In this document: positions 29,245-30,852 of the stretch, piece by piece
Numbering within the stretch: the first letter of the stretch is position 1
How the letters are laid out: the number at the start of each line of letters is the position of its first letter
The notes under the pieces: generated by a model
Seen by the model: only the letters and a program-made list of their open reading frames with translations
What the model was told of the DNA's origin: nothing
Database searches by the model: none
Program-made: the position numbers and the translations under genes
From: Streptomyces sp. NBC_00582
Lineage (GTDB): Bacteria; Actinomycetota; Actinomycetes; Streptomycetales; Streptomycetaceae
Assembly: GCF_036345155.1 (NCBI RefSeq)
Contig: NZ_CP107772.1
Coordinates: 3,286,001 to 3,350,000 of the forward strand
Direction of reading: 5' to 3'
Length of the DNA: 64,000 nucleotides

Positions 29245-29249
29245 ACGGC

Positions 29250-30203
29250 CTAGTTGTGCTGACCGGACAGGTTGGTGACACGGCTGGCTGGGGGGTGGCC
29301 GCCGATGCCGGTGTGGGGTCGGTGGTAGTTGTACCAGTGCAGCCAGTCGGGAAACGCTGCCTGACGTTCGCTGTCTGACATGTAGGGCCGCGTGTAGGCC
29401 CATTCCTCGAGCAGGGTGCGGTGGAAGCGTTCGACCTTGCCGTTCGTCTGCGGCCGCCAGGGCCTCGTCCAGCGGGGACTGATCCCCAGGTCGAGGCAGG
29501 TGTCACGCCAGGTGTTCTTGGTGTAGGCCCAGGCGTTGTCGGTCAGGACCCGTTCGACGGTGATCCCTTGCTGCGCGAACCAGGCGGTGGCGCGGGTGAG
29601 GAAGGCGGCGCAGGTCGGGGCGGTCTCGTCGGGCAGGTCTTCGGTGTAGGCCAGGCGGGAGTGGTCGTCCAGGGCGGTGTGCAGGTAGGCGTAGCCGGTC
29701 CCGGTGCGGTTGCGTCGGCCTTCGGCGCGGCCCTGGGTGCGGTGCCCGCCGCCGTCGGGAATCCGCCCCAGCTTCTTGACGTCGATGTGGACCAGTTCGC
29801 CGGGCCGTGCACGCTCGTAACGGCGGACGGGTTCGCCGGTGGCCCGGTCGACGGCGGCCAGGACGGGCAGGCCGTGCCGGCGCAGGATGCGATGGGCGGT
29901 GGAGGCGGCGACGCCGGTGCGGGCGGCCAGCCGCAGTGGGCCGATACGGTGCTCGCGCCGCAGCCGCACGACCCGTTCTTCCACCGCCGCCGGTGTCCGG
30001 TGCGGTTGACGGTGCGGGCGGCTGGAGCGGTCCCGCATCCCCGCCTCGCCGTGCTGCCGGTAGCGGCTCGCCCAGCGTGCGGCGGTGGTGTGACTGACCT
30101 GGAAGCGTTCCGCGGCCCGGCGCAGCGGCCAGCCGTCGTCCACGACACACCGGGCCAGACGGAGCCTGCCGGTCGGCGTCAGCGGCGCATTACGGTGGGA
30201 CAC
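29250..30203 (-). CDS. IS481-family DDE transposase
   Basis: 317-residue transposase. The GTG at 30203 follows GGAGG and gives the family start SHRNAPLTPTGRLRLARCVV; the longer frame has no ribosome site. N-terminal helix-turn-helix (RAAERFQVSHTTAARWASRY) and a DDE core: Asp in HIDVKKLGRIPD, Asp in VLTDNAWAY and Glu in NGKVERFHRTL, all intact, so the element may be active. The last two bases of its final Asn codon and the TAG stop come from the duplicated target sequence, not from the element. Confidence 0.95.
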   Translation of the reverse strand: MSHRNAPLTPTGRLRLARCVVDDGWPLRRAAERFQVSHTTAARWASRYRQHGEAGMRDRSSRPHRQPHRTPAAVEERVVRLRREHRIGPLRLAARTGVAASTAHRILRRHGLPVLAAVDRATGEPVRRYERARPGELVHIDVKKLGRIPDGGGHRTQGRAEGRRNRTGTGYAYLHTALDDHSRLAYTEDLPDETAPTCAAFLTRATAWFAQQGITVERVLTDNAWAYTKNTWRDTCLDLGISPRWTRPWRPQTNGKVERFHRTLLEEWAYTRPYMSDSERQAAFPDWLHWYNYHRPHTGIGGHPPASRVTNLSGQHN

Positions 30204-30314
30204 GAGGGCCTCCTGAGCGTTGGTGCAGATGTCGCGATCCACACCGAACCCGGAAGGCCCTCACCTGTTCAAGCACCCAGCACGCGTGTCACCAACGTCC
30301 CGGGACAACACACC
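29255..30314 (-). mobile_element. IS481-family insertion sequence with CCTAGT target duplication
   Basis: About 1.06-kb element with one transposase gene. Terminal repeats are 29255-29282 and 30285-30312, identical at 22 of 28 positions and sharing GTTGGTGACACG. Both flanks carry CCTAGT (29249-29254 and 30315-30320), a 6-base target duplication with the CTAG core known for IS481. The right end carries two extra bases outside the aligned repeat. It inserted exactly at the stop codon of a MazG-like gene, leaving that gene intact. Confidence 0.92.
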
Positions 30315-30315
30315 C

Positions 30316-30735
30316 CTAGTCGCCGGTCGCCGCGCCGCCGGGTATCCAGCCCTGGCGGCGCAGCACCGCCGAGACGTCCGGCGCCTCGTAGTGCTCCCCC
30401 TTGAGGACCTTGCCGTCGGCCCGGCGGGCGACCTGGCCGTCGGGGCCCAGCTTGCTCATGTTGGCGCGGTGGATCTCGGCGATCACCGCGTCGAGGTCGA
30501 TCCCGTGCACCAGCGCGGTGCCGTACGCCACGTAGACGACGTCGGCCAGTTCATGCGCCAGCCGGTCCAGGGGACCGCTCACCGACACCTCGGCGACCTC
30601 CGCCGCCTCCTCGGCGAGCAGCTCACCGCGGTGCGCGGCCAGGCCGGGCGACACCTCCGTGGGCGTGCTGCGCGCGTCGAGCCCGAAGGCACGGTGGAAC
30701 TCACGGACCAGGTCCGCGGGCGAGGAAATGCTCAT
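30316..30735 (-). CDS. MazG-like nucleotide pyrophosphohydrolase
   Basis: 139-residue all-helical NTP pyrophosphohydrolase. ATG follows GGGGG. Metal-binding carboxylates are seen in ELLAEEAAEV and HELADVVYVAYG (EExxE and ExxD pattern of the MazG/HisE superfamily). Such enzymes remove odd nucleotides or act in histidine-like pathways; the short single-domain form suggests housekeeping of NTP pools. Its TAG stop lies inside the right-hand copy of the IS481 target duplication, so the coding sequence was not altered by the insertion, though its terminator was displaced by about 1 kb. Confidence 0.82.
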   Translation of the reverse strand: MSISSPADLVREFHRAFGLDARSTPTEVSPGLAAHRGELLAEEAAEVAEVSVSGPLDRLAHELADVVYVAYGTALVHGIDLDAVIAEIHRANMSKLGPDGQVARRADGKVLKGEHYEAPDVSAVLRRQGWIPGGAATGD

Positions 30736-30852
30736 GCCCCCGACTGTAACGACCCCCACTGACAGCGGACCGACCACCGGGACGATCACCGGACCGACCA
30801 CCGGTGAACCCCGCCCTGGTCAGCCGCGCGCGACGGCTGGCAGGATCGGGGC

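Follow-up and report, generated by a model that had tools for sequence, protein, structure and literature searches.

The window, a stretch of 64,000 nucleotides from Streptomyces sp. NBC_00582, holds an intact insertion sequence of the IS481 family whose transposase gene has no stop codon of its own and is closed by a TAG in the duplicated target site. The ends, the duplications, the phase and the stop codon are direct observations. We consider it very probable (about 0.93) that this is an ordinary IS481-family element, present in several copies and probably active recently, to which the CTAG target gives the stop. Target specificity would have arisen first, and the missing stop would have been tolerated because the target supplies one. 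A target-supplied stop is already published for the family; here it is confirmed, and is ordinary for the family. The part worth a specialist's look is the spectrum of off-target insertions. The element is a neat example of a mobile gene that its landing site completes.

The window element and its sister copies

The element occupies positions 29255–30312 on the minus strand (1058 bp) and has the ends TGTG...CACA. The source genome (11.1 Mb, two contigs) has three further copies (L002–L004) with 0 mismatches over the 1058 bp. Their duplications are exact, 6 bp long and directly abut TGTG and CACA (in the transposase direction GCTAGG, TCTAGG and TCTAGA), which fixed the element ends and allowed us to recognise two extra C in the window copy. 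There, the duplication CCTAGT lies at 29249–29254 on the left and at 30315–30320 on the right, and the two extra C (30313–30314), missing in the three sister copies, separate the right duplication from the element end. The inverted repeats, 28 nt long and 79% complementary, are found at 29255–29282, at the 3' end of the transposase gene, where the repeat encodes the C-terminus, and at 30285–30312, at its 5' end. The element has the family trait of inverted repeats starting with TGT. Its 6-bp duplication agrees with the usual length for the family, as given in an excerpt of PMC10045372.

The transposase reading frame spans 29250–30242 (minus strand), counted from GTG at 30242, the start candidate that gives the longest product; this coordinate is an upper limit. 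The product scored 360.9 bits against the NCBIfam IS481 model NF033577 (cut-off 224), and the Pfam domains LZ_Tnp_IS481 (PF13011), rve (PF00665) and rve_3 (PF13683) were all above cut-off. IS481 transposases are of the DDE type by family. The named organisms with the closest relatives of this transposase were Streptomyces.

No in-frame stop is present within the element. On the minus strand, its transposase end reads CAG CAC A/AC TAG G, with the slash at the element border. The last element base (A, 29255) and two target bases (AC, 29254–29253) form the final Asn codon, following Q and H, and the first in-frame TAG (29252–29250) lies entirely within the left copy of the duplication. The initial annotation had described a transposase without a stop, an Asn codon made of A plus AC and a TAG from the target; this was correct base for base, and the sister copies, with the same frame, concur. 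One genome thus has four byte-identical copies in four targets, all CTAG and all reading TAG alike. A coincidence, or a misassembly of a single copy, would fit the two extra C at the right junction of the window copy, but is extremely improbable, as the four copies concur and copies from many genomes and record kinds agree with them. The sister copies and the survey described below rule out that stop and element end came together by chance.

Based on family knowledge, the transposase would insert with a 6-bp stagger around CTAG, and gap repair would duplicate NCTAGN on both sides. The final element base (A) would be the first base of a codon that NC completes (to Asn, Thr, Ser or Ile, depending on N), and TAG would follow. 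Because CTAG is its own reverse complement, either orientation of insertion works. We infer both the staggered cutting with repair and tolerance as the evolutionary reason for the missing stop. For hypothetical circles, we computed junctions with a spacer of 0–8 bases of any letters, in which the frame would close 8–19 codons on.

The window target is itself a host stop codon. A host gene with a PRA-PH/MazG-like domain (30316–30801, minus strand; domain match E 2e-22) has its TAG stop at 30318–30316, in the right target duplication, and its homologues in 11 relatives terminate near the same residue. After the insertion, one TAG ends the host gene and another ends the transposase. The two extra C are outside the transposase and past the host-gene stop. 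The original target (empty site) was not found at the 11 relative loci with the host gene, so that we infer the source of these two bases from their appearance, which is that of a C-run expansion.

Target-supplied stops across the family

Survey loci were taken from the own genome, 199 genus genomes, named species genomes (80 loci), 296 phylum genomes, 197 order genomes (via the Pfam leucine-zipper model) and extra copies in multi-copy genomes. Removal of four loci without a transposase match reduced the 259 loci to 255; a further 41 had no callable ends (214 left) and 14 were duplicates, leaving 200 distinct copies. The ends were scored by inverted repeat, duplication and TGT/ACA ends, and CTAG played no part.

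Of the 200 distinct copies, 158 had an exact 6-bp duplication, these and the following counts being uncorrected for some rows with misplaced ends (e.g., L038, L041 and L137, which really have TAG at +2). The initial annotation expected CTAG in the duplication of every related copy. This held for 153 of the 158 and failed for five, which had CTAA (twice), TTAG, CTAC and GTAG, the latter from an element with an internal stop. The 6-bp NCTAGN duplication with an in-frame TAG from the target, also proposed there, was recovered in 149 of the 153 CTAG copies, with TAG two bases beyond the element end (+2). The other four had TAG at −7 (two copies), TGA at −15 (one) or no call (one). In all 200 copies together, TAG was at +2 in 176 and TAA in two.

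The 149 elements ranged from 1021 to 1295 bp, and their lengths modulo 3 formed classes of 36, 47 and 66, while the end phase was constant. Among copies that had both a stop at +2 and an exact duplication, transposase identity to that of the window ranged from 43 to 99.7%. An A followed by NC can encode exactly T, S, I and N, and one of these was the last residue in 108 of the 120 homologous proteins listed (the best 120 of 7823 passing, several of them marked partial); eight of the other 12 ended in H and four otherwise. For annotation this means that the last residue (N, T, S or I) is decided by the target, and that a copy gains a long C-terminal tail from the flank where its target is CTAC or its junction is damaged. 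Searching 150 genomes for the pattern of element ends plus CTAG yielded 282 matches, spread over 84 of them.

From plasmids, ten loci were fetched, five of which (L386–L390) had an exact duplication. The same arrangement as in the window was found in Pseudomonadota, in ISBcen26 (L390; exact duplication GCTAGC, TAG two bases beyond the end) and in a Rhizobium etli copy (TCTAGC). ISRel2 (L388), also from Pseudomonadota, had the exact duplication TCTAAT and a TAA two bases beyond the end. Both ISBcen26 and ISRel2, named by record annotation, are distant from the window transposase (H24, 42.7% and H18, 44.7% identity, respectively). In the more distant ISEc19 of E. coli, the stop is within its repeats.

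Long C-terminal extensions were suspected in one genome (G469, open frames of 314–797 aa) and rejected: all seven fetched copies had TAG at +2, placing the surplus length upstream. Eight copies (L062, L066, L081, L091, L105, L203, L204 and L208) had CTAG at both ends and unequal flanking bases, as expected from recombination between copies or adjacent rearrangement. In L160 (G417), one added base at the 3' junction of the transposase made the frame miss CTAG, and the stop was 248 nt downstream.

Two published IS481-family systems resemble the window element. For ISLxc2/ISLxx4 from Leifsonia xyli, an excerpt of PMC2516522 places the transposase stop codon within the host insertion site; as in the window, NCTAGN is duplicated and the ends are TGT, whereas ISLxc2 is 1105 bp long and has an additional in-frame stop near its start. 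For ISRe46/TnRErm46 from Rhodococcus equi, an excerpt of PMC6794481 names the TAG of the right NCTAGN repeat as the transposase stop, and the left repeat as the end of some target genes, which is the role of the right repeat in the window. TnRErm46, likened here by description, differs in being a 6.9-kb transposon with cargo. The same excerpt states that the family is thought to move by copy-paste (PMC6794481).

A literature search by title and abstract start, with most subscription journals outside its range, recognised no survey dealing with off-target stops or with lineages that carry an internal stop. Our survey quantifies the published remark: its generality, the off-targets that keep a stop, and the lineages with a stop of their own. 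According to its title, a 1993 study (J. Bacteriol. 175:3151) reports that IS870 needs a CTAG target for the creation of its large ORF's stop codon. IS870 is an IS5-like element of Agrobacterium and belongs to a different family.

Off-target insertions and internal stops

Two pattern searches in 343 genus genomes, using element ends plus one-base variants of CTAG, yielded 22 and 8 matches. For 14 of these 30 loci the stretch lacked a transposase, and of the 16 remaining, six had exact duplications. The other ten (fragments or unequal sides, e.g., L320, L326, L327, L336 and L343) were excluded, as only exact duplications were counted as off-target. The six exact loci represented five insertions, one already known as L084: CTAA in L330, L332 and L318/L337 (the L084 insertion), TTAG in L342 and CTAC in L328. 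Two Pseudomonadota copies contributed TCTAAT and CTTAGG. Ten off-targets of stop-less elements were verified: five CTAA (giving TAA), three TTAG (giving TAG) and two CTAC, which give no stop.

The proposal that insertion at other targets extends the protein was therefore right for two of the ten (L175 and L328) and wrong for eight, in which CTAA or TTAG gave TAA or TAG. For the window element itself, no off-target insertion was seen; its relatives have two of ten open and eight with a stop. In L175 (CTAC), the frame reaches a TGA 92 nt beyond the element end. In L328 (G092, 461–1806), with TCTACC on both sides, it reaches a TGA 284 nt beyond the end. The L328 tail reads LLDEPTTGLHP..., which we take to be a UvrA-like ABC ATPase motif, and continues in frame into a host coding frame, forming a natural fusion frame. 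The genome of L328 has 11 identical copies, L328 among them. All but L328 are at CTAG and read TAG at +2; two of these ten have common flanking bases and may represent a single insertion within repeated DNA. L374 and L380, near opposite contig ends (G092:C1, near 6801332 and 6319), had flanking bases in common and perhaps mark terminal repeats of a linear chromosome.

The initial annotation had also named what would speak against it: related copies with the stop inside the element, or with another duplication length. Both were encountered in side lineages, the former in L131, L138, L153, L158, L159, L161, L294 and relatives, the latter once (7 bp, L294). Twelve internal-stop copies were found: (i) with TAG at −7, L131, L138, L158 and L294; (ii) with TGA or TAA at −15 and a common end sequence, L159, L286, L288, L301, L306 and L354; and (iii) L161 with TGA at −15 and L153 with TAA at −24. 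L287, from the same group as L159, was not placeable and is outside the 12. CTAG was at the ends of nine of the 12, as an exact duplication in L131, L158, L161, L306 (L306/L357) and L354, and unequal or one-sided in L286, L288, L301 and L153. The remaining three were off CTAG: L159 (GGTAGC), L294 (CTTCAGG) and L138 (ACTACC/ACTTAC, not exact). In a tree of 108 transposases, L131, L138, L158, L159 and L161 were scattered among target-stop rows; several internal-stop rows are long branches, which leaves the count of gains uncertain.

The internal-stop lineages found mostly keep CTAG, so CTAG specificity does not need the missing stop. This is the main evidence against the idea, suggested from the window, that target choice and the stability of the transposase are linked. 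As far as these sequences tell, target choice is not accounted for by a requirement for a stop.

Functional coupling, by which an off-target insertion yields an extended transposase of lower stability or activity, or by which survivors are filtered for a kept stop, nevertheless has some observations on its side. Eight of the ten stop-less off-targets were CTAA/TTAG, which give a stop in both orientations, though CTAC/GTAG was ~20 times commoner (1530 against 72 sites) in 20 stretches of 20 kb (400 kb, seven genomes). Off-target internal-stop copies (L159 with GTAG, L294 and L138) had CTAA/TTAG in none of three, against the eight of ten (p 0.035, post hoc). Among exact duplications, the non-CTAG share was 2/7 for internal-stop and 4/153 for stop-less elements (p 0.02, post hoc and ignoring relatedness); a higher share in the former would fit a stop that holds targets to CTAG. 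Against coupling, nine of the 12 internal-stop copies still had CTAG at their ends, and both stop-less insertions of the CTAC/GTAG type (L175 and L328) were in the stop-losing orientation, contrary to filtering. An enzyme preference for pyrimidine-TA-purine yields the same skew and is the simpler reading of it. Selection for the stop would produce this skew and would also make GTAG commoner than CTAC, as read in the transposase direction; stop-less elements had GTAG 0 and CTAC 2, too few to decide and not in selection's favour. The orientation bias of CTAC/GTAG insertions was thus dropped as a selection test, with two cases, both stop-losing. Overall, coupling appears unlikely. We are equally doubtful of its extended form, in which selection would filter the off-targets of stop-less IS481 elements by the stop supplied, internal-stop lineages would drift freely (GTAG, CTTCAGG, ACTTAC), and rare CTAC insertions would lead to transposase–host fusion frames. 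The survey makes it testable whether the range of off-targets is shaped by the enzyme or by selection.

CTAG sites and host stop codons

In the same 400 kb, CTAG was observed 76 times, compared with 1063 expected from composition. The per-site use in the survey was ~2.0 for CTAG, 0.04 for CTAA/TTAG and 0.001 for CTAC/GTAG; these values are rough, as seven genomes provided the stretches and many provided the copies.

CTAG targeting could mainly serve a harmless landing in host stop codons, with the transposase stop as a by-product. The window insertion within a host stop codon is in line with this, and so are the target genes described as uninterrupted in an excerpt of PMC6794481. In a crude test for coding, 82 of 151 targets were the stop of a neighbouring frame, compared with 53 of the 191 further CTAG sites in the flanks of those targets (p 8e-7). 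By the same crude test, the excess was small relative to the classified CTAG of the 20 stretches (31 of 75, p 0.09), and CTAG is rare and often terminal in any case. Landing in stop codons is mostly as expected for such a motif. We do not claim it as the driver, given an excess over neighbouring CTAG and none clear over the sampled stretches, and regard it as improbable beside the main reading, in which specificity came first and the missing stop was tolerated.

Within the 64 kb of the window, CTAG occurs 8 times, compared with ~162 expected from composition, and two of these are the element's own duplications.
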